From positions 1-56,778 of the forward strand of contig NZ_FZON01000030.1 in assembly GCF_900188425.1 (NCBI RefSeq): a stretch of 56,778 nt of DNA, given 5' to 3'. The translations under genes and the position numbers were made by a program. The stretch's first letter is position 1. Each line of letters starts with the position of its first letter. The stretch is from Antarctobacter heliothermus (GTDB lineage Bacteria > Pseudomonadota > Alphaproteobacteria > Rhodobacterales > Rhodobacteraceae). The notes beneath the pieces are model-generated. The model made no database searches and was not told where the DNA came from. It worked only from the letters and a program-made list of their open reading frames with translations. Positions 12,695 through 56,496 of this stretch are shown piece by piece.

Positions 12695-12726
12695 AGGCGT
12701 GTCACGGTCAGCGGGAGGACCGGTCG

Positions 12727-15150: not shown

Positions 15151-17357
<2,207 letters not shown>

Positions 17358-17386
17358 CCGGACACCTGATCACGGGGGAGGATCAC

Positions 17387-18646: not shown

Positions 18647-18647
18647 C

Positions 18648-20084: not shown

Positions 20085-22186
20085 CTTCGACGGCCCGCGG
20101 CCCTCACGGGATCTCCTCCGGCAGACCCACTCCCCTGGGCGCGGTCTTTGACGGCGAAGGCACGAATTTCGCGCTGTTTTCAGACCATGCGCATCAGGTC
20201 GACCTGTGCCTGTTTTCGCCCGACGGCAAGACCGAGCTGCAACGCCTGCCCCTGCCCGAACGCAGCGGTGAGGTCTGGCACGGCTATGTCCCCGGCCTGC
20301 GGCCCGGCGCCCTGTATGGCTACCGGGTTCATGGCCCATTTGCGCCCGAGCGAGGCCATCGTTTCAACCCTAACAAGCTGTTGCTTGATCCCTATGCGCG
20401 GATCCTGCACGGCAAGTTCACCACCAATCCCGAAACCTTTGGCTATGCGGTCGGCACAAGTGACGGGGACCTGTCGTTCAGCACCACTGACAGCGCCCCG
20501 CATGTCCCCAAGGCCGTTGTCTGGGACCCTGCCGATTTCCCGCCCGACGCCAAGGGGCTGCGGCGCGGCTGGGACGGCACCCTGATCTATGAGGCCCACG
20601 TCAAGGGCAGCACGATCTGCCACCCCGACGTGCCCAAGGATGTGCGCGGCACCTACGAAGGCCTGGCCTCGCAGCCGATGCTGGATCATCTCACGCGCCT
20701 TGGCATCACCTCGGTGGAGCTGTTGCCGGTGCAGGCGATCCGGTCTGAGAACGCGCTGACCGCGCGCGGGCTGGTAAACCACTGGGGGTACAACACCGCC
20801 GCCTTCTTTGCGCCAGAACCGCGCTACTTTGGGCCAGAGGGCGTCGCCGGATTCCGCAAAATGGTCGAGCGTTTCCATGACGCCGGGATCGAGGTGATCC
20901 TTGACGTAGTCTACAACCATTCGGCAGAGGGCGATCATCTGGGGCCGACATTCGGCTTTCGCGGCCTCGACAATGCGTCCTACTACCGGCTGGTCGAGGG
21001 GCAGCCGAGGTTTTACGTCAACGACACCGGCACCGGCAACACACTGAACATTCAGCATCCTTTTGTCCTGCGGATGGTCCTGGACAGCCTGCGGTTCTGG
21101 GTGGAATGCATGGGCGTGGACGGTTTCCGCTTTGACCTGGCCACCACCATGGGGCGTGAAAAACACGGCTTTGATCGGCATGGCGGGTTCATGGATGCGC
21201 TGCGGCAGGACCCGGTGCTGAGCCAGGTCAAACTGATCGCAGAACCTTGGGATCTGGGCCCCGGCGGCTATCGCCTTGGCCAGTTCCCGCCTGAATTTGC
21301 CGAATGGAACGACCGTTTTCGCGACACGCTGCGGCGGTTCTGGCGCGGGGATGGTCATGCCGCGCAGGATCTTGGGTCTGCGCTGCTGGGCACCGCCGAC
21401 CTGTTTGACACCCGGGGGCGGCGTGCCTGGTCCTCTGTCAACTTTGCCGCTGCACATGACGGCTTCACGTTGGCTGACGTCACCTCTTATGCGCTGCGCC
21501 ACAACCACGCCAACGGCGAGAACAACCGGGACGGCCACCACGCCAACCATTCCGACAATATGGGCGCGGAGGGTGAAACGGATGACGCCGAAATCCTTGC
21601 CGCCCGTCAACAGCGCCGCCGCAACATGCTGGCCACCGTATTGCTGTCGCAGGGCACGCCGATGATCCTGGCCGGCGACGAAGGCGGCAACAGTCAGGGC
21701 GGCAACAACAATGCCTATTGCCAGGACAATGAGATCAGCTGGCTGGACTGGGACACGATGGACGCGGACCAAATCGCGTTCACGGCGGCCTTGTCTCGTT
21801 TTCGTCAGGCCCATGGCGCGCTGCGCCAGTCCCGGTTCCTGCACGGGGTAGAGCGCATGGACAGCCAGCCCGATGTCGAGTGGCGCGCCTTTGACGGCAG
21901 CGCGCTGAACTGGCGCGATCCGGGCCTGTCCAGCCTGTGCCTGTTGCTGCGCGGGTGCGCCGAAAGCCCGGCAGGCTGCGCCGATGCCGAAGAGGTCTTG
22001 CTGGCATTTAACCGCGAAGGCACGCCACAGACGCTTGAACTGCCGACGCCGGAGGCGGGCACCTGGCGGCGCGAGATCGACACCTCAACCGCGACGCAGA
22101 CGCCGATAGAGATCACCGAGGCGACCGTGACGGTCGCCGCGTTCAGTGTCGCGGGCTTTGTCCGCCTTCCGGAGAGCCAGACATGA
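20081..22186 (+). CDS. glgX: Glycogen debranching enzyme GlgX
   Basis: 701 residues. Hydrolyses alpha-1,6 branches of phosphorylase-limit dextrin. An N-terminal CBM48 domain ([17 protein letters not shown]) is followed by a GH13 barrel: [23 protein letters not shown] with nucleophile Asp 352, LIAEPWDLG with acid Glu 388, and [10 protein letters not shown]. The segment [17 protein letters not shown] is the isoamylase/GlgX loop. I chose the ATG overlapping the glgA stop, although the frame is open further upstream. It overlaps malQ by 4 bases. Confidence 0.94.
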
Positions 22187-24171
22187 TCGCCCCCGATGAC
22201 GCCCTGCGCCAATTGGCGCGGGCCTACGGAGTCCACCTTGGATTCCACGATCTTCAGGGGGCAGAGCATGGCGCGTCTCCCGACACGCTGCGGGCCCTTC
22301 TGGGCGGCATGGGCGTCGATGCCTCAACTGCGGGTGCTGTGACAGAGGCACTGGCCGAAACCCGTACGCAAGGGAATGAGGCCCATGTGCCCGATGAACT
22401 CATCGCCACCGCCGGAACGCGCGTCTCTTTGCCGGTGTCGGCCCCCTGCGACTGGCTGGTGCTGGACGAGACGGGTGCCGAGGTGATGGCCGGGCGCGCC
22501 GGCCAAAGCATTGACCTGGAGCCGCTGCCGGTCGGATATTTCACCCTGCACGCCGCCACCCCGGACCGCCGGACCGAATCGCTGGTGCTGTCGGCCCCGC
22601 CGCATGCGCCAACCGTGGCGGACGTGACCGGGCGGGCCAAAGGCTGGGGGGTTTGCGGCACGTTGTACGGGCTGCGGTCGGGGCATAACGGCGGCCTTGG
22701 CAGCTATGCCGATCTGCCCGCCGCCCTGCGCGCCCTTGCCAAAAGCGGCGCGCAGTTCTTTGGCCTGAACCCGATCCACGCGCTGGGTTGGGCGGCGGAC
22801 GAGATGATCAGCCCTTATTCGCCCACGCACCGGGGGTTTTTCAGCACGGATCACATTGCGCCACGCGCTGGGCTGGGTCCGACGCCGAAGGGCGATCTGG
22901 TCGATTACCCCACCTTTCGCCGCCGTCAGCGCGCCGCGCTGCGCGCCGAATATGCCCGGTTTGACGCCGCCCCCGCGCCCGAGCGCAAGGCGTTTCAGGT
23001 GTTTCGCGCACAAGGCGGTCCGGTGCTGGACACCTTTGCGCAGTTCGAGGCGCTGAGCGCGATCCACGGTGAGGATTTTCGCAAGTGGCCCGAGGCCCTG
23101 CGCAAACCCGGCGCCGAAGCAGCGCGGGCGGCCTCGGCGGACGTTGGTTTCCACCAGTGGCTGCAATGGCGTGCTGAAAGGCAGATCGACACCGCGCAGG
23201 CGGCCGCGTTGGATGCGGGCATGGATTTCGGCCTCTACCTGGATCTGGCAGTGGGCGCACGCCCCGGCGGGGCCGAGGTCTGGATGCACCGCGACACCAT
23301 CGCCCAAGGAGTCAGCGTCGGCGCACCACCGGATCACCTGAACCCCGAAGGCCAGTCCTGGAACCTGGCCGCCCATGCGCCCGCACGGCTGCGCGCAGCC
23401 CAGTACAAACCGCTGCGCGCCATGCTGCGCAAGCTGATGGCCAAGGCGGGCATCCTGCGAGTCGACCACGCATTGGGCCTGTTGCGCAGCTTCTGGATAC
23501 CCGATGACGGCAGCCCCGGCGGCTATGTCTCCCAGCCGTTTGACAGCCTGCTGGCCGTCATCGCCATCGAGGCGGCGCAGGCGTGCTGTGTCGTGGTCGG
23601 TGAGGATCTGGGCCTTGTCCCCGACGGGTTCCGGGAAAAACTGAACGGCGCGGGTCTGCTCAGCTATGCGGTCTGGCAATATGAAACGCCCGGCGACGGA
23701 CAGCTGTGCCAGCCCCGCGACCTGCGGCCCTTTGCGCTGGCCTGTTTCGGCACCCATGACACGCCGACGATCAAGGGTTTTTGGTACGGGCAGGACATCG
23801 CATGGTGGCAGCGTATGGGCTGGCTGTCTGGTGGGGAAACCAGCGCACGGCACGACCTGCGCGCGCGGCAACGCCAGGGTCTGCGCACCATGTGCGCGCT
23901 GCCGCCGCTCGCCACACCAAAGAGAATCGCCGAGGCGGTGCAGGCAAAGCTCTGCACCGCGCCGTCCGCGCTGGTGGCACTGCAACTGGACGACCTGCTG
24001 GGTGGATTGGAGGCGCAGAACCTGCCCGGCACCGTGGACCAGCACCCCAACTGGCGCCGTCGCAATCCCGTCACCGTCGAACGGCTGTCAGAGGCTTTGC
24101 CCCGTGACCGCATTCGCGCTTTCATGCCCGCAGATCGCAGCGGGACCGATCAGAAAGGACCGACCCAATGA
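22183..24171 (+). CDS. malQ: 4-alpha-glucanotransferase (amylomaltase) MalQ
   Basis: 662 residues, GH77. Joins short maltodextrins released by GlgX and GlgP into longer ones. Seen: YGLRSGHNGGLGSYADL, the aspartate nucleophile region ILRVDHALGLLRSFW, the acid in VVGEDLGLVP, and FGTHDTPTIKGFW. An N-terminal ~150-residue extension precedes the barrel, as in long-form bacterial MalQ. Placing it in the glg operon rather than with maltose genes implies recycling of glycogen fragments. Overlaps glgX and pgm by 4 bases each. Confidence 0.93.
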   Translation: MIAPDDALRQLARAYGVHLGFHDLQGAEHGASPDTLRALLGGMGVDASTAGAVTEALAETRTQGNEAHVPDELIATAGTRVSLPVSAPCDWLVLDETGAEVMAGRAGQSIDLEPLPVGYFTLHAATPDRRTESLVLSAPPHAPTVADVTGRAKGWGVCGTLYGLRSGHNGGLGSYADLPAALRALAKSGAQFFGLNPIHALGWAADEMISPYSPTHRGFFSTDHIAPRAGLGPTPKGDLVDYPTFRRRQRAALRAEYARFDAAPAPERKAFQVFRAQGGPVLDTFAQFEALSAIHGEDFRKWPEALRKPGAEAARAASADVGFHQWLQWRAERQIDTAQAAALDAGMDFGLYLDLAVGARPGGAEVWMHRDTIAQGVSVGAPPDHLNPEGQSWNLAAHAPARLRAAQYKPLRAMLRKLMAKAGILRVDHALGLLRSFWIPDDGSPGGYVSQPFDSLLAVIAIEAAQACCVVVGEDLGLVPDGFREKLNGAGLLSYAVWQYETPGDGQLCQPRDLRPFALACFGTHDTPTIKGFWYGQDIAWWQRMGWLSGGETSARHDLRARQRQGLRTMCALPPLATPKRIAEAVQAKLCTAPSALVALQLDDLLGGLEAQNLPGTVDQHPNWRRRNPVTVERLSEALPRDRIRAFMPADRSGTDQKGPTQ

Positions 24172-25805
24172 CGCCCATCACGCGCGCCCTGACGCCCTTT
24201 GACGGGCAAAAGCCCGGCACCTCCGGTCTGCGCAAAAAGACCCGTGTTTTCATGCAGGACGGCTATCTTGAGGCCTTTGTGCAGGCGATCTTCAATGCCA
24301 TCGACGGGGTTGCAGGAAAGACCTTTGTGGTCGGCGGCGATGGTCGGTTTTTCAACGCCGAGGCGATCCAGACCATCCTGCGTATGGCCGCGGCGCAAGG
24401 CGCTGCGCGCTGCATCGTCGGTCAGAACGGGCTGTTGTCTACACCTGCCGCGTCGAACCTGATCCGCCAGCGCAAGGCCGATGGCGGGCTGATCCTGTCG
24501 GCCAGCCACAACCCGGGCGGCATCGACGCGGATTTCGGTCTGAAATACAACATCTCGAACGGTGGACCCGCGCCCGAGAGCGTGACGGCGGCCATGTTCG
24601 AGCAGACCAAGACAGTGTCAGAGTACACCACGCTGGACACCGCGGATCTGGACCTGTCTGCATTGGGCGACGCGGCGCTGGGCGGCATGACGGTCGAGAT
24701 CGTGGACCCGGTGACGGACTATGCCGCGCTGATGCAGGAACTTTTTGATTTCAAGGCAATCTCCGATCTGATCGCAGGCGGTTTCACCCTGCGATTCGAT
24801 GCAATGCATGCGGTCACCGGCCCCTACGCCAAGACGATCCTTGAGGGGATGCTGGGCGCGCCAGAAGGTACGGTGATGAACGGTACGCCGTCGGTGGATT
24901 TCGGCAAAGGACACCCGGATCCGAACCCGATCTGGGCCAAGCCGCTGGTTGATCTGGTGATGTCCGACGATGGCCCGGATTTTGCCGCCGCCTCTGATGG
25001 CGATGGCGACCGCAACATGATTCTGGGCAAGGGCGTCTATGTGACCCCCTCGGACAGTCTTGCCGTGCTGGCGGCGAACGCGCATCTGGCCCCCGGCTAC
25101 AAACGCGGGCTGGCGGGCGTGGCACGGTCGATGCCGACCAGCCGCGCAGCGGACCGGGTGGCGGAAAAGCTGGGCATCGCCAGTTTTGAGACACCGACCG
25201 GGTGGAAGTTCTTTGGAAACTTGCTGGACGCGGGCAAGGCCACGCTCTGCGGTGAGGAAAGCGCCGGAACAGGCAGCGACCATGTACGCGAAAAGGACGG
25301 TCTGTGGGCGGTGATCCTGTGGCTCAACATTTTGGCAGAGCGCAAGGTTTCGGTAAAAGAAATCTTGCAGGACCACTGGCAGACCTATGGGCGCGACTAC
25401 TATTCCCGGCATGACTACGAGGCCGTCGATGCGGCAGCAGCCGAGGCGATGATGGCGGACATGAACGCGCGTCTGGCCGATCTGCCCGGTACCCAGGTGA
25501 GCAATCCGTCCAAAACCATCGCTGCCGCTGATCAGTTTTCCTACACCGATCCGGTGGACGGGTCGGTCAGCAACAACCAGGGTCTCCGCCTGCTGTTTGC
25601 CGATGACAGCCGCGCGGTGATGCGCCTGTCCGGCACCGGAACCGAGGGTGCAACGGTTCGCGTCTATCTGGAACGCCATGAACCCGCCGATGGCGACCTG
25701 AACGTAGAGACTCAGGCAGCTCTCAGTGATCTGGCCACAGCTGTGAACCTGCTGACCGGGCTGCCGGAACGCACCGGGCGGGATGCGCCGGACGTCATGA
25801 CCTGA
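24168..25805 (+). CDS. pgm: Alpha-D-glucose phosphomutase Pgm
   Basis: 545 residues. Interconverts glucose-1- and glucose-6-phosphate. The active-site loop LSASHNPGG has the phosphoserine at Ser 113 (usual motif TASHNPGG). The metal loop is [10 protein letters not shown], the sugar loop [11 protein letters not shown], and the phosphate loop [13 protein letters not shown]. Length fits the eukaryote-like PGM family seen in alphaproteobacteria. Last gene of the glycogen operon; it links glycogen to central metabolism and to GalU for UDP-glucose. Confidence 0.95.
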
Positions 25806-44864: not shown

Positions 44865-45485
44865 CTAGTCTGCCAATTCGCAGCAGCCTGACAGCACATA
44901 GCCGTCTGTGCCCGTCACGATCACTGTCGCGTCAAAGCCGTATTCATTGTCGGACATGCCATTGTCGCAATACGCCTTGACCACCACGACCGAAAGGTCG
45001 CGCGCACCGGCGCCACCTTGCAGCACCCATTTCTCCAACGGGTTGTACGCCCGTTTCATCAGCCCGACGGAAAAGGTGTCGCCGACCTCGTAATTGACCG
45101 GCGTCTTGACCGTGGCGCTCTGGCCCGGCCGGATGTCGATGTCCCAGAACGGCTCTGTCCCGCCGCAGATCAGCCGCGGCACATTGCCGATGTCGCCGTC
45201 CACGCGCGGCGCAAGATACCGCAGCGACGTCCAGCCCGGCAGCTCGTGAACATTCACCAACCCCCAGTTGCCTTCGACCCGGATCACCTCGACCGCGCGG
45301 GAGTCATAGGCCAGTTCCCCGACAATCGGGTGACTGGCACCCGGACCCGCGCGCACGTTCAGGACATCGTTCGACGCCACGCCCACAACATCGTGCAGGC
45401 GTGGATAGTCGCTTTGGGCGGCGGCGGCCGTGCCAAGCAGCAGCAGACCGCACAAAAGGCGCATCACCCCAACCGCGCGCATCAT
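44865..45485 (-). CDS. Secreted SH3-domain protein with EPFW domain (paralogue 2)
   Basis: 206 residues from ATG 45485, which overlaps the upstream stop as ATGA. Signal peptide to AAAAQ. An SH3b-like domain (VLNVRAGPGASHPIVGEL) is followed by a second domain with CGGTEPFWDIDIRP, CDNGMSDNEYGFDATVIV and the ending SGCCELAD. The second domain fits the COG3650-type family, related to lysozyme-inhibitor/META folds. SH3b modules usually bind peptidoglycan, so a cell-wall role is likely. The same layout occurs in its neighbour, so they arose by tandem duplication. Confidence 0.78.
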   Translation of the reverse strand: MMRAVGVMRLLCGLLLLGTAAAAQSDYPRLHDVVGVASNDVLNVRAGPGASHPIVGELAYDSRAVEVIRVEGNWGLVNVHELPGWTSLRYLAPRVDGDIGNVPRLICGGTEPFWDIDIRPGQSATVKTPVNYEVGDTFSVGLMKRAYNPLEKWVLQGGAGARDLSVVVVKAYCDNGMSDNEYGFDATVIVTGTDGYVLSGCCELAD

Positions 45486-46075
45486 TGCATGTCGAGCGAA
45501 CAGCACCCGGTATAGACCTGCGTGTCATAACCGCCGATCACCGCCGAGCCGGAAAAGCCAAAGACATAATCCGACATGCCGTCGGTACATTGCGTATGGT
45601 TGAGGACCAGCGTGACATTCTCCCCCAGCTTGCTGCCCAGCAGGGCGTGCGGCGCGTCGCGGCTGATCGCTGTCGCCAGCTCACCCACCTTGAACGCCTT
45701 GTCGTCATCGTCGGGGCGGGTGAATGTCAGGTTTTCTCCGACCACTGTCGCGCTCCAGAACGGTTCGGTGCCGAAACATTTGTACTGGTATCCAGAGGGT
45801 AGCTCAGTGCCTTCCTGCCGCTCCATCGAATCAAGCGGAACCCAGCCTGACAGGCCCTCGACGTTGACGCGGCCCCAGCCGTCGTCTTCTTCGACAACCT
45901 CGACATGTTTGGCGTCGAACCCCAGCGCGCCGATCACCGTGCCGTTTTCCGTCGGGCGGGTGCGCATGTTCAGCACGTCGCCCTCTTCAATGCCCATGAC
46001 ATGGTAGAGCGCCGGAAATTCCTGTGCCGAGGCCGCCCCGGCGAGACAAATCAGTAGTGCTGCAAATTTATTCAT
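45482..46075 (-). CDS. Secreted SH3-domain protein with EPFW domain (paralogue 1)
   Basis: 197 residues. Signal peptide ends ASAQE. The SH3b-like domain has VLNMRTRPTENGTVIGALG and VEGLSGWVPLD; the second domain has CFGTEPFWSATVVG, CTDGMSDYVFGFSGSAVIGG and the end TGCCSLDMQ. All the cysteines match positions in the adjacent paralogue, implying two conserved disulfides. First of the two-gene unit, overlapping the next by 4 bases. Both end before alkB, convergently. Confidence 0.78.
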   Translation of the reverse strand: MNKFAALLICLAGAASAQEFPALYHVMGIEEGDVLNMRTRPTENGTVIGALGFDAKHVEVVEEDDGWGRVNVEGLSGWVPLDSMERQEGTELPSGYQYKCFGTEPFWSATVVGENLTFTRPDDDDKAFKVGELATAISRDAPHALLGSKLGENVTLVLNHTQCTDGMSDYVFGFSGSAVIGGYDTQVYTGCCSLDMQ

Positions 46076-46123: not shown

Positions 46124-46954
46124 TCAGCGGCGCGCGCTCCACGAGGCCGAGGCGTGTTTGCGGGTGTAGAACTCACCCATGAGACCAATCATCACCAGAA
46201 TGATACTCAGATAAAATGCATATTCCCAGTCAGAATTCCGGGGGTTGTAATCGACAAAAGCGTATCCACGCGACTGGTCGATGGTGTGGAACAGGGGATT
46301 CCAATCGAACATCGCCAGCATGGAACTGGGCAGCGTATTGGCCACGAACATCTTGCCCGAGGCAATCATGTTGGCGCGCTGGTACACCGTTGAAATGATG
46401 CTGACCGGCGTCGGGAACCACGGCTTGACCGCCAGAAAGACCAACCCGATCGCGGCGCCGGAAAACCACGACAGGATGACCATGGCAAGGCAGCCGATGG
46501 GGTCGTGAATGTCCTCCATCACAAAGGGATTGAAGGCCACGTCGTAGACGAACAGGATCGCGAACAGCGACAGGATCTGGATATACAGCGTCGAGACCAT
46601 GGCAGAGATTATGGCAATGGCAGTGTTCATCGGCGCGTGCTGCATCATCGGGCTGGCCGGTCCCTCGGACGCGGACACGGCGCCCAGCGTCTTGGTGTGG
46701 GTCATGAACAGGAACACGCCGGTCATGATGTAGACCATGAAGTCGCCGCGCAGGGCGGCGCTGCGCATCCCCAGGATCTGGAACATGAAATAGAACGCCA
46801 GAACAAAGATAATCGTCTGCAACATGTTCATGAAGATCGCCATGAAGGCATTGCCATGCGTCTTGCGCACTGAACGGACTGAATTGTGATAGATCAGTTC
46901 AAGGATGTAGACGAAGGATTCCAGCCGGGACCGGGGTCGAGTAACCTGAAACAT
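46124..46954 (-). CDS. ABC-2 polysaccharide export permease (Wzm/KpsM-like)
   Basis: 276 residues from ATG 46954 (GGAGCAGG ahead; the 22 residues upstream look non-coding). Six hydrophobic segments after a basic amphipathic start (RLESFVYILELIYHNSVRS), with NMLQTIIFVLAFYFMFQILG and a late TFPSSML-like loop and FDWNPLFHTIDQSRGYAF, which is typical of Wzm/KpsM. It would export a capsule or O-polysaccharide. No ATPase gene adjoins it, which is unusual since KpsM and KpsT are normally paired. It is divergent from the cysQ-glycosyltransferase-sulfotransferase genes. Confidence 0.82.
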   Translation of the reverse strand: MFQVTRPRSRLESFVYILELIYHNSVRSVRKTHGNAFMAIFMNMLQTIIFVLAFYFMFQILGMRSAALRGDFMVYIMTGVFLFMTHTKTLGAVSASEGPASPMMQHAPMNTAIAIISAMVSTLYIQILSLFAILFVYDVAFNPFVMEDIHDPIGCLAMVILSWFSGAAIGLVFLAVKPWFPTPVSIISTVYQRANMIASGKMFVANTLPSSMLAMFDWNPLFHTIDQSRGYAFVDYNPRNSDWEYAFYLSIILVMIGLMGEFYTRKHASASWSARR

Positions 46955-47080
46955 GCTGCCTGCTCCGGATGCGTGCCCGCGACAGGCCGCACACTTGCTG
47001 TTCTTGTTGTCCGGCACCATAAGGCGCGCGAGCTTTCAAATCAATAAATCCGCGCAGGCCGCGCGTCTTGGAGCCATGAA

Positions 47081-47878
47081 ATGAATTATTCCGAACTGAC
47101 CACCGTGATGCGCCGTCTGGCTCTGGAAGCCGGAGAGAAGATCATGGAGATCTACAACTCCGATGATTTTGAGGTCATGGTCAAATCCGACGACAGCCCC
47201 GTCACCGTTGCCGATCAGGCCGCCGACGCGCTGATCTCGGACGGTTTGCGCGCCGCATTTCCGGACACCGCGCTGGTCACGGAGGAACAGGCAGACAGCC
47301 ATGACGTCACCGCCATGACCTTTCTGATTGTCGATCCGCTGGACGGCACCAAGGAATTCATCAAGCGGCGCGGCGATTTCACCGTGAACATCGCGCTGGT
47401 CGAGGACGGTGTGCCGACCCGCGGCGTGGTCTATGCCCCCGCCAAGGGCCGCATGTTCTACACCGACAGCGTCGGCAAATCGGTCGAAGAGACCGGCCCC
47501 TTTGACCTTGAAACGCGCGGCGAGACAACGCCGATCAAAGTCACCGATCCCGACAACGCGGCGCTGATGGTCGTGGCGTCGAAATCGCACCGTGATCAGG
47601 CCACCGTCGACTACATCGCCAAATACGATGTCAAGGACATGACCAGCGCCGGGTCGTCGCTGAAATTCTGCCTTGTCGCCACGGGCGAGGCAGATCTGTA
47701 TCCGCGTCTCGGCCGCACAATGGAATGGGACACCGCTGCGGGCCACGCCGTGCTGAACGGCGCAGGCGGGCGCGTGGTGCGCTTTGACGATCACACAGCG
47801 CTGGCTTACGGCAAGGAAGGCTTCGCCAACCCGTTCTTCATCGCCTACGCTCCAGGTGTGGATCTGAAAGAGGGCTGA
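47081..47878 (+). CDS. cysQ: 3'(2'),5'-bisphosphate nucleotidase CysQ
   Basis: 265 residues. Removes the 3'-phosphate of PAP (and PAPS), the by-product of sulfotransferases. Lithium-sensitive phosphatase motifs: VTEEQADSH, the metal site LIVDPLDGTKEFIKRRGDF, and GEADLYPRLGRTMEWDTAAG. Full length. TTGGAG lies before the ATG. Its position at the head of a block ending in a sulfotransferase gene fits PAP clearance during glycan sulfation, beyond its usual role in sulfate assimilation. Confidence 0.93.
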   Translation: MNYSELTTVMRRLALEAGEKIMEIYNSDDFEVMVKSDDSPVTVADQAADALISDGLRAAFPDTALVTEEQADSHDVTAMTFLIVDPLDGTKEFIKRRGDFTVNIALVEDGVPTRGVVYAPAKGRMFYTDSVGKSVEETGPFDLETRGETTPIKVTDPDNAALMVVASKSHRDQATVDYIAKYDVKDMTSAGSSLKFCLVATGEADLYPRLGRTMEWDTAAGHAVLNGAGGRVVRFDDHTALAYGKEGFANPFFIAYAPGVDLKEG

Positions 47879-47886
47879 GTCCCAAC

Positions 47887-49110
47887 ATGACCCTGCCGGT
47901 CAGCATCGTCGTCGTCAGCCGGGATAGACCGGCCGCGCTGATGCGCTGCCTGACCGGGGTCGGCCAACTGGACTACGCCCCGTTTGAGATCATCGTCGTC
48001 GCCTGTCCCGCAGGCGCCGATGCCACGGCGGCCCGCCCCGACGCCGACCACATCAAGCTGATCCGTTTTGATGACCCCAACATCTCGGCCGCCCGCAATC
48101 TGGGGAGTGCTGCTGCATCCGGTAAGATCGTGGCCTTTATCGACGACGACGCGGTGCCGGAACCGCTGTGGCTGCGGCACCTGACCGACCCGTTCGGCGA
48201 TCCGCAAGTGGCCTGTACCGGCGGCTATGTGATCGGGCGCAACGGCATTTCCTATCAGTGGACATCGCGCAGCGTCGACACGACTGGCACGGCGCACCCG
48301 CTGGCCCTGTCCGGTGATGCCCCCGCAACACCCGCCCCACCGCAAGGGCAGGCGATCAAGACCGAAGGCACAAACATGGCGGTGCGCCGCGATGTGCTGT
48401 CCACGATTGGCGGGTTCGATCCGGCGTTCCGCTTTTATCTGGATGAAACCGATCTGAACCTGCGGCTGGCCGCTGCGGGCCATCGGACGGCGCTGGTGCC
48501 CTTGGCACAAGTCCATCACGGATTTGCCCAAAGCGCCCGACGCGACCGCGACCGCAGCCCGCGCGACCTGACAGAGATCGGCGCCTCGCAAATGGTCTTC
48601 TTGCGCAAGCATGGCCCCGAGGCCGACAGGACCGCCGCATGGCGGACCTTTGCGGACGGACAGCGTGCGCGTCTTTTGCGCTTCATGCAAAGCGGCCCGC
48701 TGGACCCGCTGGATGTGGCGCGCCTGATGCGCGGTTTGCAGCACGGCGCAAAGGACGGTGCCAGCCGCGCCTTCGGAACGACCCTCGCCCAGCCCGACCT
48801 CGACCAGGGGTTTCGTCCCTATCCCGGACGTCCGGACGCCCCGCGTGTGCGCCTTTCCGGCAGACCGTGGCAGGCCGCGCGGTTGCGCGCCAAGGCGGCC
48901 AAGGCGGTCCGCGACGGCGCCATCGTCAGCCTGTTCCTGTTTTCACCGACAGCCCGCCGCCATCGCGTCACCTTTACCTCTGAAGGGGTCTGGGAACAAT
49001 CTGGCGGACTTTTTGGGCAGAGCCATCGCAATGGCCCGGCAATCCGCCTGCAGCACTTTTCTTCTCGCCTCTCATCAGAGATTATGCGAGTGCAGAAACA
49101 GCGCGGATAG
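47887..49110 (+). CDS. Glycosyltransferase family 2 protein
   Basis: 407 residues. GT-A fold: VSIVVVSRDRPAALMRCLTG, nucleotide-binding Asp region ISAARNLGSAAASGKIVAFI-DDD (the DxD-like metal site), and EGTNMAVRRDVLSTIGGFDP with FYLDETDLNLRLAAAG, the acceptor-side ED motif. A ~120-residue Arg-rich C-terminal tail has no recognised domain. It begins eight bases after cysQ. Donor and acceptor sugars are unknown; UDP-sugars from GalU/GalE downstream are plausible. No transmembrane segment. Confidence 0.85.
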   Translation: MTLPVSIVVVSRDRPAALMRCLTGVGQLDYAPFEIIVVACPAGADATAARPDADHIKLIRFDDPNISAARNLGSAAASGKIVAFIDDDAVPEPLWLRHLTDPFGDPQVACTGGYVIGRNGISYQWTSRSVDTTGTAHPLALSGDAPATPAPPQGQAIKTEGTNMAVRRDVLSTIGGFDPAFRFYLDETDLNLRLAAAGHRTALVPLAQVHHGFAQSARRDRDRSPRDLTEIGASQMVFLRKHGPEADRTAAWRTFADGQRARLLRFMQSGPLDPLDVARLMRGLQHGAKDGASRAFGTTLAQPDLDQGFRPYPGRPDAPRVRLSGRPWQAARLRAKAAKAVRDGAIVSLFLFSPTARRHRVTFTSEGVWEQSGGLFGQSHRNGPAIRLQHFSSRLSSEIMRVQKQRG

Positions 49111-49251
49111 CGCGGATTTCGCGGGTCAAACACCCGACAAGACGACATATTGGGAACACACTTTTACCTAGGTTTTTTGCCATCCCGTTCGATAAGGCCC
49201 CCGCAATAAGCGGCCAAGGGGACCGGACGGCAAGAACAGATGGAGACTGAA

Positions 49252-50142
49252 ATGAAAAAAAAGGTCACCAAGGCGATCTTTCCTGTGGCGGGGCTTGGCA
49301 CCCGATTTCTTCCGGCCACCAAATCCGTTCCAAAGGAGATCATGACGCTGGTTGATCGCCCGCTGGTGCAATACGCGATTGACGAGGCCCGCGCCGCCGG
49401 GATCGAAGAGTTCATCTTTGTCACCTCGCGCGGCAAGGGCGCGCTGGAGGATTATTTCGACGTCGCCCCACAGTTGGAAGAAGAGCTGCGTCGCAAGGGC
49501 AAGGATCAACTGCTGGACATCCTGTTGTCGACCAACATGGACAGCGGTGAAATTGCCTACATCCGCCAGCACAAGGCGCTGGGTCTGGGCCATGCCATCT
49601 GGTGCGCCCGCCGTCTGGTTGGCGATGAGCCTTTTGCCGTCATGCTGCCCGACGATGTGATTGCCGCCGAAAAACCCTGCCTGCAGCAGATGGTCGAGGC
49701 CTATGAGCAGACCGGCGGCTGCATGGTGGCGGCGATGGAGGTTCCGCAAGAGCGTGTCAGCGCCTATGGCGTTCTGGATATCTCCGAGGACATGGGCCGG
49801 TTGGTCAAGGTCAAGGGCATGGTCGAAAAGCCGCCCGCCGATCAAGCGCCGTCAAACCTGGCGGTGATCGGCCGCTACATCCTGACCCCCGAGGTGTTCA
49901 AGCATCTGGAAAATCCCCAGACTGGTGCCGGGGGCGAGATCCAGTTGACCGACGCGATCGACAAGGAAATCAACGCCAGCGGTGTGTATGGCTACCGCTT
50001 CAACGGGCAGCGGTTCGACTGCGGGTCCAAGGCCGGTTTCCTGCAGGCCACCGTTGCCTTTGGTCTGGCGCGCGATGAGCTCAAGGACGATCTGGGCGCT
50101 TATCTCGACGAACTCGCGGTTTCTCGCAAGGCGGCGGAATAG
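49252..50142 (+). CDS. galU: UTP-glucose-1-phosphate uridylyltransferase GalU
   Basis: 296 residues. Makes UDP-glucose from UTP and glucose-1-phosphate. AIFPVAGLGTRFLPATKSVP at the start (nucleotide loop), EIMTLVDRPLVQYAIDEA, the UTP-binding VMLPDDVI, EKP, and the late NGQRFDCGSKAGFLQA. I chose ATG 49252 with GGAG six bases ahead; ATG 49240 is also in frame. Five bases before galE. Substrate comes from Pgm or GlgP, so glycogen and surface glycan pathways meet here. Confidence 0.95.
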   Translation: MKKKVTKAIFPVAGLGTRFLPATKSVPKEIMTLVDRPLVQYAIDEARAAGIEEFIFVTSRGKGALEDYFDVAPQLEEELRRKGKDQLLDILLSTNMDSGEIAYIRQHKALGLGHAIWCARRLVGDEPFAVMLPDDVIAAEKPCLQQMVEAYEQTGGCMVAAMEVPQERVSAYGVLDISEDMGRLVKVKGMVEKPPADQAPSNLAVIGRYILTPEVFKHLENPQTGAGGEIQLTDAIDKEINASGVYGYRFNGQRFDCGSKAGFLQATVAFGLARDELKDDLGAYLDELAVSRKAAE

Positions 50143-50147
50143 GCCAG

Positions 50148-51131
50148 ATGGCGCATGTTCTGGTCACAGGTGGCGCAGGATATATCGGCAGCCACGCGTG
50201 CAAGGCGCTCAGGGCGGCGGGCCATACGCCCGTCACCTTTGACAACCTGTCGACAGGCTGGCAGGACGCGGTCAAGTTCGGGCCTTTCGAACAAGGCTCC
50301 CTGACAGACCGCGCCCGGCTGGACGAGGTATTCGCCAAGTGGCAACCGACGGCGGTGATGCATTTCGCCGCCCTCAGCCAGGTCGGTGAGGCGATGGCCA
50401 AACCGGGGTTGTATTGGCGCAACAATGTCGACGGGTCGCTGACCCTGATCGAGGCCGCCTGCGCTGCCGGGTGTCTCGATTTCGTGTTCTCCTCGACCTG
50501 CGCCACTTATGGGGAACATGACAACGTCGTGCTGGACGAAAACACTCCGCAAGAGCCGTTGAACGCCTATGGCGCCTCAAAGCTTGCGGTGGAAAACATC
50601 CTGCGCGACTTTGGCGCCGCCTACGGCCTGAAATCGGTGGTGTTTCGCTATTTCAACGTGGCAGGCGCCGATCCCGAAGGCGAGGTCGGGGAACATCACC
50701 GCCCCGAAACACACCTGATCCCGGTCATGCTGGAGGCGGTCGATGGCAAACGCCCCGGCCTGACCGTGCATGGCACCGACTACGACACGCCTGACGGCAC
50801 CTGCATCCGCGATTATGTGCATGTGATGGATCTGGTCGATGCGCATGTGCTGGGCCTGAAGTGGCTACAAGATGGCAAGGGCAGCCGGGTCTTCAACCTT
50901 GGCACCGGGCGCGGCTTTTCCGTGCGTGAGGTGATCGACGCGGCGGGCCATGTCACCAACATGGCCGTTCCCTGCACCGATGGTCCGCGCCGCGCAGGCG
51001 ATGCCACGAAACTCGTCTCCGGCTCGACCCGCGCGGACGAGGAGCTGGGCTGGACGCCGCACCGTTCGACCATGCCGCAGATGATCGCCGATGCGTGGCG
51101 CTGGCACAAGAATGGTCACTACGCAGCGTAG
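50148..51131 (+). CDS. galE: UDP-glucose 4-epimerase GalE
   Basis: 327 residues. Interconverts UDP-glucose and UDP-galactose with bound NAD. The dinucleotide motif is TGGAGYIGSH at 7-16; catalytic SST at 115-117 and YGASK with Tyr 141 and Lys 145. RYFNVAGADPEGEVGEHH and the TCIRDYVHVMDL segment fit GalE. Typical length. Its 3' end overlaps the next glycosyltransferase start by about 20 bases, so they are coupled. It implies galactose in the exported glycan. Confidence 0.95.
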   Translation: MAHVLVTGGAGYIGSHACKALRAAGHTPVTFDNLSTGWQDAVKFGPFEQGSLTDRARLDEVFAKWQPTAVMHFAALSQVGEAMAKPGLYWRNNVDGSLTLIEAACAAGCLDFVFSSTCATYGEHDNVVLDENTPQEPLNAYGASKLAVENILRDFGAAYGLKSVVFRYFNVAGADPEGEVGEHHRPETHLIPVMLEAVDGKRPGLTVHGTDYDTPDGTCIRDYVHVMDLVDAHVLGLKWLQDGKGSRVFNLGTGRGFSVREVIDAAGHVTNMAVPCTDGPRRAGDATKLVSGSTRADEELGWTPHRSTMPQMIADAWRWHKNGHYAA

Positions 51132-52299
51132 TCGCCTTCTGGACCTGACCCGGCTGACCAGCCGGGCGGGCCGTCCCCTGACCGGGGTCGACCGTGTCGA
51201 ATTTGCCTATCTGACCCATCTGTTGCGACATGGGCCGCTGTGGGGGTTGGTGCGGACCTCTCTGGGCTATGTCCTGCTGGATGCCACGGGCTGCGCCGCG
51301 TTCCGGGACCGGATGCTGTCCGGTGACTGGGGACCGGCGGACCGGCTGTCGCGGATCAAACGCGGGCTGGACCCGATGCGCGCGAAGGCGGAATCCGATC
51401 TGCGCCGGATCTGCACCGCGCGCTGCCTACCTCTCCGGCTGTCGGCCATGCTGCGCCGCCACCTGCCACGCGGCATCACCTATGTGAACACCGGCCACAC
51501 CAATCTGACGGACCGCGTGCTGTCAGCATTGCGCGGCATCGATGCGCGCGTGTCGGTCTTTGTGCACGACACCATCCCGCTGGACGTGCCGCAGTACCAG
51601 CGCCCCGGCACCGTCGAGAAATTTCGCCATTTCCTGACACGCGTCGCAGGCAGCGCCGATCTGATCATCTGCAACTCACACCAGACCGAGGCCGATCTTA
51701 GCCGCCATCTGGCGGGGGGCCGCGTGCCCCCGACGATCTCTGCCCCCCTCGGTCTGGACCTGACACAGCCAACCAGTGCCCCACAGGGTCCGTGGGCCAA
51801 ACCCTATTTCGTCACCCTTGGAACGATTGAGCCCCGCAAGAACCACGCCCTGCTGCTGGATCTCTGGGCCGACATCCCCGACGCCGATCTGCTGATCTGC
51901 GGCAGCCGCGGCTGGGAAAATCACGCTGTCTTTGACCAGCTCGACCGCAAGCCCCCGCGCATTCATGAACTGCCCGGGCTGGACGACGGGCAGGTCGCGG
52001 CGCTCTTGAAAGGGTCGGCGGGATTGCTGTTTCCCAGCTTCGCTGAGGGCTATGGCCTGCCCCCGGTCGAGGCCGCAGCCCTGGGCGTGCCCGTTCTGGT
52101 GAACGATTTGGCAATATATCGGGAAGTATTGGGTGACATTCCCGTTTACGCAAATGTTTCCGACCGTTATCTTTGGCGCAAAGAAATCAACCGATTGGCA
52201 GCGATCCATCGGGCAGGACAGACCGACGCAGAACAGGCCCTGCGTTTCGCACCCCCCACATGGGAGGCGCATTTCAAGACGGTTTTAACCCTGACCTGA
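51112..52299 (+). CDS. Glycosyltransferase family 4 (group 1) protein
   Basis: 395 residues from ATG 51112; the frame is open to an ATG at 51091, but both starts lie inside galE. GT-B fold: the N-terminal half has TSRAGRPLTGVDRVEFAYL, VFVHDTIPLDVPQYQRPG and ADLIICNSHQTEADL; the donor half has FVTLGTIEPRKNHALLLDLW, LLICGSRGWEN and the motif SFAEGYGLPPVEAAALGVPV (E-x7-E). The sequence resembles mannosyl- or glucosyltransferases of exopolysaccharide loci. The extra N-terminal basic region is typical of Rhodobacterales members. Fifty-two bases before the next gene. Confidence 0.87.
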   Translation: MVTTQRSRLLDLTRLTSRAGRPLTGVDRVEFAYLTHLLRHGPLWGLVRTSLGYVLLDATGCAAFRDRMLSGDWGPADRLSRIKRGLDPMRAKAESDLRRICTARCLPLRLSAMLRRHLPRGITYVNTGHTNLTDRVLSALRGIDARVSVFVHDTIPLDVPQYQRPGTVEKFRHFLTRVAGSADLIICNSHQTEADLSRHLAGGRVPPTISAPLGLDLTQPTSAPQGPWAKPYFVTLGTIEPRKNHALLLDLWADIPDADLLICGSRGWENHAVFDQLDRKPPRIHELPGLDDGQVAALLKGSAGLLFPSFAEGYGLPPVEAAALGVPVLVNDLAIYREVLGDIPVYANVSDRYLWRKEINRLAAIHRAGQTDAEQALRFAPPTWEAHFKTVLTLT

Positions 52300-52351
52300 T
52301 AGCTGCGTTTCGCAAAAGCGGCCCTTGGGGCGCGGGACATGAGGCAGACAT

Positions 52352-53362
52352 TTGGGCGCATGGCAGGCATACCGTCTGAGGATGCAGCGGAAACGCTGGC
52401 GCATCCGTGCCTTTCGCAAACGGCGCGAATTGCGCCCGGTCGCCAATCGAACCGATCAGATCCGCGCTTCTGACATCCTGCTGTTTTCGACCCAGCGCAA
52501 TGAGGGCATCCGCCTGCCCTATTTCCTGCGCTACTACCGCGACATGGGCGTCAGCCACTTTTTCTTTGTCGACAATGACAGCACGGACGGCTCGCTCAAC
52601 TACTTGGCCGAACAGCCGGATGTCTCTGTCTGGACCACGCGCGCCAGCTATAAACGCGCACGGTTTGGGGTCGACTGGCTCAACTGGCTGCTGATGCAGC
52701 ACGCACATGGCCATTGGGCGCTGACCGTCGACCCGGATGAGCTCTTTTTATACCCGTTTTGCGACACCCGCCCCCTTAGCGCGCTGACCGACTGGCTGGA
52801 TGCCTCTTCGATCAAATCATTCTCGGCCATGCTGCTGGACATGTACCCCAAGGGCCGGATTGATCAGCACCCCTACCGCACCGGGCAAGACCCGCTGGAG
52901 ATTGCCAGCTGGTTCGACGCTGGCAATTATTCGATTCAGAAAAACCCGCAATTCGGCAACCTGTGGATTCAGGGCGGACCGCGCGCGCGGGTGTTCTTTG
53001 CCGACAAGCCGAAACTGGCCCCGGCGCTGAACAAGATCCCGCTGGTGAAATGGGATCGCCGCTATGCCTATGTGTCCTCCACCCACAACCTGCTGCCGCG
53101 CGGTCTGAATCAGGTCTATGACGAATGGGGCGGCGAAAAGGCCAGCGGCCTGCTGCTGCACACCAAATTCCTGTCGACCTTTTCCGAAAAGGCCGAAGAA
53201 GAGCTGGACCGCGGCCAGCACTACGGCGCCAGCCGCGAATACATCGCCTATGCCGAGGCGGTCAGGGACAAACCGGACCTGTGGTGCAAATGGTCAGAGA
53301 AATACATCAACTGGCGCCAGCTTGAGATCCTCGGCCTGATGTCAAAGGGCAACTGGGCATGA
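52352..53362 (+). CDS. Glycosyltransferase family 2-like (Glyco_tranf_2_4 type) protein
   Basis: 336 residues. TTG start at 52352 with GAGG seven bases ahead; relatives recalled from this group share the AYRLRMQRKRWRIRAFRKRR start, which supports TTG over ATG 52382. Core motifs: LLFSTQRNEGIRLPYFLRYY, FFVDNDSTDGSLNYL, and TVDPDELFLYPFCDTRPL with D-x-D-E at the metal site. A C-terminal region ends KYINWRQLEILGLMSKGNW, with no membrane segment. Start of the next gene overlaps its stop by 4 bases. Donor sugar unknown. Confidence 0.8.
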   Translation: MGAWQAYRLRMQRKRWRIRAFRKRRELRPVANRTDQIRASDILLFSTQRNEGIRLPYFLRYYRDMGVSHFFFVDNDSTDGSLNYLAEQPDVSVWTTRASYKRARFGVDWLNWLLMQHAHGHWALTVDPDELFLYPFCDTRPLSALTDWLDASSIKSFSAMLLDMYPKGRIDQHPYRTGQDPLEIASWFDAGNYSIQKNPQFGNLWIQGGPRARVFFADKPKLAPALNKIPLVKWDRRYAYVSSTHNLLPRGLNQVYDEWGGEKASGLLLHTKFLSTFSEKAEEELDRGQHYGASREYIAYAEAVRDKPDLWCKWSEKYINWRQLEILGLMSKGNWA

Positions 53363-55059
53363 GCGTGGGCGTCATCCTGCTGGTCCACACCGCCTTTGAC
53401 CGCGCCGAACAGGTGGCCCGGCACTGGGCACAGGGCGGCCGTCCGGTGGTGATCCACGTCGACGCCAAGGTGCCCAAGGACCGCTTTCGGACCTTCCAAC
53501 AGGCGCTGGCCGATCTGCCCGACGTGTTGTTTTCCAGACGCCACCGTTGTGAATGGGGCACCTGGGGGCTGGTCGCCGCCAGTCAGGACGCGTCCGAACT
53601 GATGCTGGAGCGTTTTGCCGACGTGCAGCATGTCTACCTGTCGTCCGGGTCCTGTCTGCCGCTGCGTCCGGTGGATGAACTGCGGGCTTACCTTGCGGAC
53701 CGCCCGCGCACCGATTTCATCGAAAGCGCGACAACCGCAGATGTGCCCTGGACGGTTGGCGGGCTGGACCATGAACGCTTTACCCTGCAATTCCCGTTTT
53801 CCTGGCGCAAACACCGTTATCTCTTTGACAAATTCGTGGACCTGCAACGCGCCACTGGCTATGCGCGCCGCATCCCCGAAGGGTTGACGCCCCACATGGG
53901 CAGCCAGTGGTGGTGCCTGACGCGCAAAACCCTCTCCGCCATCCTGAATGACCCCGAACGCCCGCGCCACGACCGCTATTTCCGCCGCGTCTGGATACCG
54001 GACGAAAGCTATTTCCAGACCCTTGCGCGGCTCTACTCAACCCAGATCGAAAGCCGGTCACTGACGCTGTCGAAATTCGACTTTCAGGGCAAACCGCACA
54101 TCTTTTACGACGATCACCTGCAACTTTTGCGGCGGTCGGATTGTTTCGTCGCGCGCAAGATCTGGCCACAGGCCAATCGCCTCTATGAGGCGTTCCTGAC
54201 CGACCCGAACACAGCCCAGCAACGGCAAGAGCCCAATCCCGGCAAGATCGACCGCATCTTTGCCAAGGCGGTGGACCGCCGGACCCGTGGCCGCCCCGGC
54301 CTGTACATGCAAAGCCGGTTCCCGCGCATGGGCTGGGAAAACGGCGTCACGGCCGGGAAATACTCGGTGTTCCAAGGCTTCGCCGAGCTGTTTGTGGGGT
54401 TTGAGGACTGGCTGGCCAAATCCACCGGCGCGCAGGTGCACGGCCACCTGTATGCCCCGGACCGGGCTGAATTTGCGGGCGGCGAAACGGTTATCGCCGG
54501 GGCTTTGCCCGACAATGCGCTGGCGCGGGACGGCAACCCCAAGGCGTTTCTGACAAACCTGCTGTGGAACACGCGCGGTGAGCGTCAGTGTTTTCAGTAC
54601 GGGCCTGCGGACAATCCAAAGGTGCTGCGTCACATGACGCTGGACCCGAACGCGCAGATCAGCGTGATATCGGGCGCTTGGGCGGTGCCGCTGTATCAGT
54701 CCAATTCCGACTTTGCCGAGATCCGGGCAGAGGCCGCGCGCCTGCAACGGATAGAGGCCAAGATGCTGGACGAGTTGCGCAAACCCGACGTCAAGGCGCG
54801 CATCCGGACGTGGACAATGGCCGATTTCATCGAGGCCCCGATGGAACCCTTGCAGACCCTGATCGACGAGATCGGACAAAAGAACGCCCGCCGTCTGGCA
54901 GAGGCGCCGCGCCTTGTGGACCTGTCCGGCTTTGGCCAGTTCCTGCAAAACCTCAAGAATCAGGGGATGCACCCCTATCTTATGGGTGATTTCCCGGTGG
55001 ACCCGATCCCCCGCAACCGCCCCGGCAGCTCCCGAAAACCCTATCTCGTCAGGAAATGA
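53359..55059 (+). CDS. GT14 (beta-1,6-N-acetylglucosaminyltransferase-like) protein with DUF5927-type C-terminus
   Basis: 566 residues. Residues 1-270 resemble the Branch/core-2 GlcNAc-transferase family: VHTAFDRAEQVARHWAQGG, VIHVDAKV, VYLSSGSCLPLRPVDELRAY and WWCLTRKTLSAI. The remaining ~290 residues, starting about IWPQANRLYEAFLTDPN, form a second domain known from Rhodobacterales with no assigned function (my recall is DUF5927). It probably adds a side branch to the glycan. Seven bases before the sulfotransferase gene, so co-expressed. Confidence 0.8.
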   Translation: MSVGVILLVHTAFDRAEQVARHWAQGGRPVVIHVDAKVPKDRFRTFQQALADLPDVLFSRRHRCEWGTWGLVAASQDASELMLERFADVQHVYLSSGSCLPLRPVDELRAYLADRPRTDFIESATTADVPWTVGGLDHERFTLQFPFSWRKHRYLFDKFVDLQRATGYARRIPEGLTPHMGSQWWCLTRKTLSAILNDPERPRHDRYFRRVWIPDESYFQTLARLYSTQIESRSLTLSKFDFQGKPHIFYDDHLQLLRRSDCFVARKIWPQANRLYEAFLTDPNTAQQRQEPNPGKIDRIFAKAVDRRTRGRPGLYMQSRFPRMGWENGVTAGKYSVFQGFAELFVGFEDWLAKSTGAQVHGHLYAPDRAEFAGGETVIAGALPDNALARDGNPKAFLTNLLWNTRGERQCFQYGPADNPKVLRHMTLDPNAQISVISGAWAVPLYQSNSDFAEIRAEAARLQRIEAKMLDELRKPDVKARIRTWTMADFIEAPMEPLQTLIDEIGQKNARRLAEAPRLVDLSGFGQFLQNLKNQGMHPYLMGDFPVDPIPRNRPGSSRKPYLVRK

Positions 55060-55065
55060 TTCCCC

Positions 55066-56496
55066 ATGTCCCAGCGTTTCGACTGTTTCGTGATCTTCGC
55101 CGAGATGCGGACAGGCTCGAATTTCCTAGAGGCGAACCTGAACGCCTTTGACGGGATGACCTGCCACGGTGAGGCGTTCAACCCGCATTTCATCGGCTAT
55201 CCGAACACCGATCATATCCTGGACGTCACGCTGGAAGAGCGTGACCGCAATCCCGCCGCCCTGCTGGATCGTATCCGCACCGGCACACCAGAGGGTCTGG
55301 GCGGGTTTCGCTATTTCCACGACCACGATCCGCGTGTTCTGGACCCGCTGCTGGCGGACCCGCGCACCGCCAAGATCGTTCTCACTCGGAACCCGGTCGA
55401 CAGTTATATCAGTTGGAAGATCGCGCAGGCCACCGGCCAGTGGAAACTGACCAACGTCAAACGGCGCAAGGATGCACAGGCGCGCTTTGACGCCGAAGAG
55501 TTCGAAAGCCATCTGGCCGAATTGCAGGCATTTCAGGTGACATTGCTGCGCGCGCTGCAGACCACCGGCCAGACCGCCTTTTACGTCGCCTACGAGGATT
55601 TGCAGGACGTCGAGGTCATGAACGGGCTGGCGCAATGGCTGGGCATTTCGGCGCGACTGGACAGCCTGAACACCGCCCTGAAACGGCAAAACCCGCAATC
55701 TACCGCGCAAAAGGTTGAAAACTACGCCGAAATGTCGGCCTCGCTGGCGCGGCTCGATCGGTTCAACCTGTCGCGCACGCCGAATTTCGAACCCCGGCGC
55801 GGCCCCGTGGTGCCGACCTATATCGCCGCGCGGGACACACCGCTGTTGTATATGCCAATCCGGTCCGGGCCGGAACGCGCAGTCCGGCAATGGCTGGGCG
55901 CGCTGGACGGCGTCGGACCGGGCAAGCTGGCCGACAAATTCACCCAAGGCTCGCTGCGCGGTTGGAAACGCGACCGCCCCGGCCACCGCAGCTTTACCGT
56001 GATCCGCCATCCTCTGGCGCGCGCGCATGATGCGTTTTGCTCCAAGATCCTGACCACGGAAAAGGGCAGCTTTCCCGGTATTCGCAAGGTGCTGCGCCGG
56101 GCGCATAACTTTCCCATCCCCGAGGGAGAGCCGGGACTGAACTATGACGTGACCGCCCACCGCGAGGCGTTCAGCGCCTGGCTGGCCTGGGTCCGGGCAA
56201 ACCTGAATGGACAGACTGCGTTGCGCGTCGATGGCCATTGGGCCACGCAGGCCCAATGCCTTGAGGGGATGGCAGAGTTTACCTTGCCGGACATGATCGT
56301 GCGCGAGGATGAGATGGAGGCTTATCTGCCCGCGCTCGCTCTGCAGGTTGGTCATGAAAACCCGCCCGATCCGGTGGCCGTCGCCAACAGCGCACCGTAT
56401 TCGCTGGCGGAAATTTACGACAACCAGATCGAGGCACTGGCCCGCGACGCCTATCAGCGCGACTATGTGATGTTCGGTTTCAACGACTGGGCATAA
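55066..56496 (+). CDS. Two-domain sulfotransferase (Stf0-like N-terminus, second sulfotransferase-like C-terminus)
   Basis: 476 residues, nearly double the usual ~250. First half (1-240): PAPS loop AEMRTGSNFLEANL at 13-26 and 3'-phosphate site VLTRNPVDSYISWKIAQ, followed by an Arg/Lys-rich helix, as in Stf0/NodH-like enzymes. Second half: PIRSGPERAVRQWLGAL (degenerate PAPS loop) and FTVIRHPLARAHDAFCSKIL, like another sulfotransferase family. So one chain may hold one active and one reduced or altered site. Last gene of the polysaccharide block that starts with cysQ; it would place sulfate on the sugar chain. Overlaps the convergent release-factor gene by 17 bases. Confidence 0.82.
   Translation: MSQRFDCFVIFAEMRTGSNFLEANLNAFDGMTCHGEAFNPHFIGYPNTDHILDVTLEERDRNPAALLDRIRTGTPEGLGGFRYFHDHDPRVLDPLLADPRTAKIVLTRNPVDSYISWKIAQATGQWKLTNVKRRKDAQARFDAEEFESHLAELQAFQVTLLRALQTTGQTAFYVAYEDLQDVEVMNGLAQWLGISARLDSLNTALKRQNPQSTAQKVENYAEMSASLARLDRFNLSRTPNFEPRRGPVVPTYIAARDTPLLYMPIRSGPERAVRQWLGALDGVGPGKLADKFTQGSLRGWKRDRPGHRSFTVIRHPLARAHDAFCSKILTTEKGSFPGIRKVLRRAHNFPIPEGEPGLNYDVTAHREAFSAWLAWVRANLNGQTALRVDGHWATQAQCLEGMAEFTLPDMIVREDEMEAYLPALALQVGHENPPDPVAVANSAPYSLAEIYDNQIEALARDAYQRDYVMFGFNDWA

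Follow-up and report, generated by a model that had tools for sequence, protein, structure and literature searches.

A nearly fixed locus of the Rhodobacteraceae probably assembles part of a sulfated, ABC-exported capsule and appears to exchange glycosyltransferase modules

Contig NZ_FZON01000030.1 of Antarctobacter heliothermus, all 56,778 nucleotides of which are called the window below (contig C96 of a draft genome of 5.17 Mb in 159 contigs), carries at positions 46124..56496 a block comprised of a permease of the ATP-binding cassette type 2 (ABC-2) and, divergent from it, genes for CysQ, a GT2 glycosyltransferase, GalU, GalE, a GT4 and a GT2_4 glycosyltransferase, a GT14 protein ending in the domain DUF5927, and a two-domain sulfotransferase. 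All nine genes were confirmed in the places and orientation that a previous sequence-only reading had given them. The locus is core to the family Rhodobacteraceae, being near-universal among the sampled members and nearly fixed in order. Judging from homology and co-occurrence, it is probable that the block, which is kept in nearly all sampled Rhodobacteraceae, serves the assembly, partly variable and partly core, of a sulfated capsule that is primed with 3-deoxy-manno-octulosonate (Kdo) and exported by an ABC transporter.

The spread of the locus was followed with PF19349 (DUF5927), which was found in 283 of 292 genomes sampled evenly from the order, nearly always in single copy, and in 3 of 240 genomes drawn from the class, all three from the window's own family. 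One of the 283 (G075) retains only a remnant of 52 positions, and in two genomes (G133 and G134) the match is interrupted by a stop codon (TGA, TAG), which marks either broken genes or sequencing errors. Gene content was compared in 103 regions from 96 genera, 60 of them from high-scoring genomes (one per genus) and 43 from lower-scoring ones; this is a chosen rather than a random sample, each region has a GT14 match by construction, and presence was scored by tblastn with the proteins of the window. GT2_4 and GT14 were found in all 103 regions, the sulfotransferase in 101, cysQ in 97, the permease in 96, galU in 94, the housekeeping gene dnaK in 79, GT2 in 56 (55 of them also with GT4) and GT4 in 55. 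The trio GT2_4-GT14-sulfotransferase stands together on one strand in 101 regions, and wherever the permease is present (96 regions) it is divergent to cysQ and at most 600 bases away. Permease, cysQ and trio all lie within 95 of the 103 regions, so that the linkage with glycosyltransferases that the sequence-only reading had proposed to look for in relatives is kept. Eight regions depart from this: L140 and L142 have no sulfotransferase, and six others have the trio but not both permease and cysQ. L142 comes from G075 and has decayed; only a remnant of GT14 is left there, and neither permease nor sulfotransferase turned up in the locus itself. In the same genome the PF05159 match is weak and a piece of KpsE contains three stops.

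From titled genomes 80 loci were compared, the best of at least 588, a choice biased to near relatives; 65 of them extend 9.5 kb or more upstream of the sulfotransferase, and of these 59 have the permease and 59 have cysQ. The closest named sulfotransferase match is from Mameliella sediminis (83% identity; Mameliella sp., 84%), with identical gene order, the locus of Ruegeria pomeroyi SZCCDBG043 adjoins dnaK, and Roseovarius sp. 217 has the trio only, within the stretch examined. A contig of a metagenome-assembled genome titled Cytophagaceae (L167) carries the sulfotransferase at 72% identity and is probably mis-binned. Seventeen plasmid records match GT14, none over 80% of its length, and the sulfotransferase had no match in the phage collection searched. 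In the five Paracoccus plasmid records listed (H6-H10), the match of the GT14 relatives is confined to residues 3-277; two carry the annotation DUF5928, and these proteins are perhaps a related fusion with a different C-terminal domain.

The main reason for reading the locus as part of a capsule is that unlinked genes of Kps type are tied to it. Ten genomes, all listed as 99-100% complete, lack an intact GT14 gene (nine without PF19349, and G075). PF05159, the family of KpsC and KpsS, matches at E <1e-40 in all 282 genomes that have GT14 and in 3 of these ten (table read by eye): it is missing from G085, G094, G156 and G232, weak in G060, G075 and G174, and strong in G110, G141 and G227. The KpsE ortholog, with E values no higher than 9e-100, was found in all 34 genomes with GT14 that were chosen for comparison and in none of the ten, four of which gave no match and the other six at best 26% identity (6.7e-33). 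A search for the sulfotransferase, covering the ten and G198, gave no match in any of the ten. Fisher's p is 3.6e-12 for PF05159, 4.0e-10 for KpsE and 1.1e-12 for the sulfotransferase, values that serve as a guide only, since the genomes are related.

In the genome of the window, a KpsT-like ATPase gene adjoins a KpsE-like gene on contig C85. The export ATPase, which the sequence-only reading had noted was not given by the window, thus has a candidate elsewhere, and this candidate, together with the linkage in the 95 regions, supports the earlier proposal of a sulfated, ABC-exported surface glycan. KpsC-, KpsD- and KpsS-like genes lie in a row on C73, with KpsD in the middle; the KpsC and KpsS candidates are PF05159 proteins of 678 and 430 amino acids. 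The only PF02348 match of the genome, KdsB, is beside KdsA on C64. By NCBIfam models, KpsS scores 214 bits (4.3e-63; cut-off 600) and KpsE 168.2 bits against TIGR01010 (cut-off 437.5), and the model nearest to the ATPase is VexC (4e-32; 111 bits, cut-off 313). The Pfam matches of KpsC, KpsS, KpsD (PF02563) and the ATPase exceed the Pfam cut-offs. Of the 103 relatives, 70 have a kdsB-like gene at most 300 bases from cysQ and on its strand; the one copy checked, at L042, is a 3-deoxy-manno-octulosonate cytidylyltransferase by NCBIfam. The window's own locus has no such neighbour.

However, several observations weigh against this capsule. The permease (46124..46954, minus strand) had no Pfam match, and its matches to VexB (1.7e-8) and KpsM (6.7e-8) are weak, the latter, at 32.8 bits, being far below the cut-off of 300; its open frame extends to 47020, and conservation begins at Met23, where the alignment starts. 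KpsT, KpsE, KpsD and KpsS likewise all fall below their NCBIfam cut-offs, and KpsC matched no NCBIfam model. The Kps, Kds and glycosyltransferase genes are spread over four contigs (C96, C85, C73 and C64) instead of forming the usual single cluster, and the same genome has a second export route, a Wza-Wzb-Wzc set on C60 (L144, G000:C60:44500-64400, 9579-13484). Strong KpsC/KpsS matches, the highest scores of the order, occur in G110, G141 and G227 despite the lack of GT14 and sulfotransferase; these perhaps belong to a different capsule. Conversely, L140 and L100 (G198) keep the locus and KpsE while the sulfotransferase is gone. The permease was not found in the region of G075, which was the only region searched for it among the ten genomes. 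As regards sulfate metabolism, APS (adenosine 5'-phosphosulfate) kinase was found in all 44 genomes tested, including the ten without the locus, and is uninformative as a test of co-loss, and CysQ is above its cut-off in the same 44 of 44. The sequence-only reading had taken CysQ at the head of the block as a partner of the sulfotransferase at its end. This argument is weakened by the retention of CysQ in all ten genomes without a sulfotransferase; since it is present where the sulfotransferase is missing, CysQ as specific evidence for sulfation was rejected. G198 has a single-domain sulfotransferase-like frame (24% identity) about 14 kb from its KpsE, perhaps a replacement for the lost gene. 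Also in the genome of the window, a second KpsE-like gene near an NAD-dependent sugar epimerase (PF01370; L152, G000:C104:32000-51900) marks another polysaccharide locus.

The most probable model is as follows. The unlinked KpsC and KpsS, to judge by homology, would place the Kdo primer on a lipid, and the glycosyltransferases of the locus would then act in the cytoplasm to lengthen it. The invariant GT2_4 enzyme (52352..53362, plus strand, as are all genes of the block except the permease; PF13704, 5.5e-33) and the GT14 enzyme may build the part that is common to all members, and an interchangeable module, consisting of GT2 and GT4 or of a second GT2_4, may build the part that differs. GalU (UTP-glucose-1-phosphate uridylyltransferase; 49240..50142; TIGR01099 above cut-off) and, where present, GalE (UDP-glucose 4-epimerase; 50148..51131; TIGR01179 above cut-off) would supply UDP-glucose and UDP-galactose. 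The N-terminal half of the sulfotransferase, to judge by its motifs and fold, would move sulfate from 3'-phosphoadenosine 5'-phosphosulfate (PAPS), and CysQ, a 3'(2'),5'-bisphosphate nucleotidase (47081..47878; TIGR01331 at 260.1 bits against a cut-off of 228.8), would remove the by-product 3'-phosphoadenosine 5'-phosphate (PAP); the locus is the only place listed above the cut-off for CysQ in this genome. The permease, presumably paired with the unlinked KpsT-like ATPase, would export the glycolipid with KpsE and KpsD. DUF5927 and the C-terminal half of the sulfotransferase, which lack the PAPS motifs, probably bind or position the acceptor.

In the window the interchangeable module is represented by GT2 (47887..49110; PF13641, PF00535) and GT4 (51091..52299, with a possible alternative start at 51112; PF00534). 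The pair GT2 and GT4 without a second GT2_4 was found in 54 of the 103 regions, and a second GT2_4 without GT2 or GT4 in 42; in the common loci of the latter type, whose layouts were inspected, three glycosyltransferases are recognised. Five regions have none of these genes and two are mixed. One of the mixed pair, L109, resembles a split gene; with it assigned to the first type, the near-exclusion of one module by the other has a Fisher p of 4e-22. The other mixed locus, L047, has GT2 together with a second GT2_4 and may have arisen by recombination between the modules. On quick, and hence rough, trees without bootstrap, with forced changes counted by starred branches, the two types are interleaved. 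The dnaK tree (77 rows, 75 typed) requires 19 module changes against 23.9 when shuffled (counts this low in 15 and 9 of 500 shuffles; at least 5 forced) and the GT14 tree (91 rows) 23 against 30 (3 and 2 of 500; at least 9 forced), so that types cluster on both. They do not on the sulfotransferase tree (92 rows; 27 against 29.9; 88 and 72 of 500; at least 15 forced) or the CysQ tree (88 rows; 26 against 28.1; 108 and 120 of 500; at least 5 forced). It seems from these trees that modules have been swapped repeatedly inside a fixed frame. The sulfotransferase does not track module type, and therefore it may act on the glycan part common to both types, as this pattern suggests. That GT14 acts on a wholly common part is a weaker inference and partly contradicted, because type clusters on its tree, unless ancestry alone accounts for this.

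Two proteins of the invariant trio have an unusual architecture. The N-terminal half of the sulfotransferase (55066..55800) has the Stf0 fold. Its PAPS-binding motifs, for which we assume the usual names and spacing rule, are identical in 98 of 98 alignment rows at M14-N19 (5' loop) and at R108 and S116 (3' R...S motif). The protein did not match the Pfam family Stf0 at E 0.001; its only match was to PF03567 (1.1e-5), on the C-terminal half (55801..56496). This half has a profile score of 33.9 with the N-terminal half and has lost the 5' loop and the serine at +8 of the 3' motif; it is probably a degenerate second sulfotransferase domain. The GT14 protein begins with a catalytic domain (53359..54153; PF02485) of the Core-2/I-branching and xylosyltransferase fold with a PDE motif, the glutamate of which we take to be the base, as in C2GnT. 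It continues into DUF5927 (54154..55059; 2.2e-159 against PF19349), which scores 34.6 (reverse, 29.3) against the N-terminal half of the sulfotransferase, compared with at most 24.1 in 48 controls, and has a similar order of secondary-structure elements. The hhalign probabilities for this pair are just 43% and 16%, and 4% for the whole proteins. A fold search with the GT14-DUF5927 protein returned no solved sulfotransferase among the rows listed, which were taken up by the GT14 domain. On these comparisons DUF5927 appears to be a sulfotransferase-like domain devoid of the PAPS motifs.

The product may be read in other ways. In a short sulfated glycolipid, exported by the same Kps proteins, the three or four glycosyltransferases would each add one sugar to the Kdo-lipid and no polymer would be formed. 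The three recognised glycosyltransferases in the common loci with a second GT2_4 fit this proposal, as does the lack of a Wzy-kind polymerase among the ten proteins scanned with Pfam; but few glycosyltransferases suffice for capsule polymers elsewhere as well, and sequence does not reveal the length of the chain. We regard this variant as somewhat unlikely. It is more doubtful that the glycosyltransferases extend the lipid A-core, to make a sulfated outer core or O-chain of lipopolysaccharide (LPS) for a permease of Wzm type. Kdo is also a sugar of LPS, a kdsB-like gene accompanies cysQ in many relatives, and the nearest solved relative of the sulfotransferase is named LPS sulfotransferase NodH. 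LPS synthesis does not, however, predict the absence of the KpsE ortholog and, for the most part, of strong KpsC/KpsS where the locus is missing, and KdsB of the window's genome is encoded next to KdsA, at a distance from the locus. Least probable of all is a merely historical adjacency of cysQ and the sulfotransferase, with a sulfotransferase substrate unrelated to the exported glycan. CysQ does occur without the locus and dnaK is also a frequent neighbour, yet the sulfotransferase accompanies GT14 and GT2_4 in 101 regions and is missing from all ten genomes without GT14.

The sugar itself is a separate question. From GalU and GalE in the window, the sequence-only reading had proposed a sulfated galactan. 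A galE match was obtained in 54 of the 103 regions, one of them a 26% paralog, so that a galE of at least 50% identity is at the locus in only 53, and it comes and goes with 17 changes on the dnaK tree while the trio and the permease-cysQ pair stay. As galE is optional at the locus, a galactan was rejected as a firm conclusion, and galactose as the main sugar is unlikely.

It is established that KpsMT-KpsE-KpsD export a glycolipid whose synthesis involves KpsS and KpsC (PMC11041684; for KpsC, PMC10148158). As in the group 2 and 3 capsules that depend on ABC transporters, the genome here has relatives of KpsE, KpsD, KpsC and KpsS and candidates for permease and ATPase, and the KpsE ortholog and mostly strong KpsC/KpsS are missing together with the locus. 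The genes are nevertheless scattered, with the permease among glycosyltransferases and away from its presumed ATPase, and a strain-variable cluster is replaced by a core locus of a whole family. A precedent is Cobetia marina KMM 1449, whose sulfated capsule has a solved structure and a cluster with kpsETMD, kpsSC, cysN/C, cysD, cysQ and a sulfotransferase (PMC11766843, in part). With its proposed partners, the present locus likewise combines Kps export, KpsSC priming, cysQ and a sulfotransferase for one capsule; the Cobetia cluster gathers export, priming, PAPS and sugar genes in about 70 genes, whereas PAPS synthesis lies outside the block here, and the passages of PMC11766843 at hand do not mention GT14-DUF5927. 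The sulfotransferase shares fold, 5' loop and 3' motif with the Stf0/NodH enzymes and differs in being fused to a degenerate second domain and in having no Stf0 match at the threshold given above; the GT14 domain shares family and fold with the Core-2 GlcNAc transferase and human xylosyltransferase 1 and differs in being bacterial and fused to DUF5927. The capsule bound by the gene transfer agent RcGTA in Rhodobacter capsulatus (rcc01081-rcc01086) is also a surface polysaccharide of a related bacterium. It was judged unlikely to be the same system from the description in passages of PMC10218006 rather than by gene comparison: that description gives export by wzc, wzb and wza, and a cluster absent from strain 37b4. 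Wza, Wzb and Wzc were not found among the proteins of the present block in the Pfam scan.

Among the open-licence PubMed Central papers listed, judged mostly by titles and the opening of abstracts, none appeared to describe the locus. Capsules of this kind are already known; the apparent novelty lies in the near-universal presence and constant order of the locus in Rhodobacteraceae, the dispersal of its Kps partners, the module that can be exchanged and the nature proposed for DUF5927. It is tempting to speculate that nearly all species of Rhodobacteraceae bear one kind of sulfated capsule, its invariant part built by GT2_4, a fusion of a branching-type GT14 with a dead sulfotransferase domain, and a sulfotransferase with two heads, only one of them live, while outside this part two modules are exchanged between lineages like serotypes; this wider picture is possible, though rather less than probable. 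Exchange of that kind would be expected if phages or other partners read the corresponding part of the capsule. Rhodobacteraceae are among the commonest marine bacteria living on algae and surfaces. If the proposal is true, a sulfated glycan shared by almost the entire family would characterise its cell surface; phages and gene transfer agents might use it as a receptor, and it would offer other microbes a carbon source rich in sulfate. The ten sampled genomes without the locus and the two exchangeable modules offer natural controls for genetics, and DUF5927 gains a guess at its function.

Promoter predictions numbered 3 against 2.3 expected, and terminator predictions 7 against 9.4. Elsewhere in the window, two genes for SH3-domain proteins (PF08239) on the minus strand at 44865-46075 adjoin the permease, and relatives were found by tblastn in 22 of the 103 regions for one and in 10 for the other. 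A glycogen cluster at 12727-25805 encodes phosphorylase, branching enzyme, an ADP-glucose pyrophosphorylase-like protein, glycogen synthase, 4-alpha-glucanotransferase and phosphoglucomutase, the last of which could be a source of glucose-1-phosphate for GalU.

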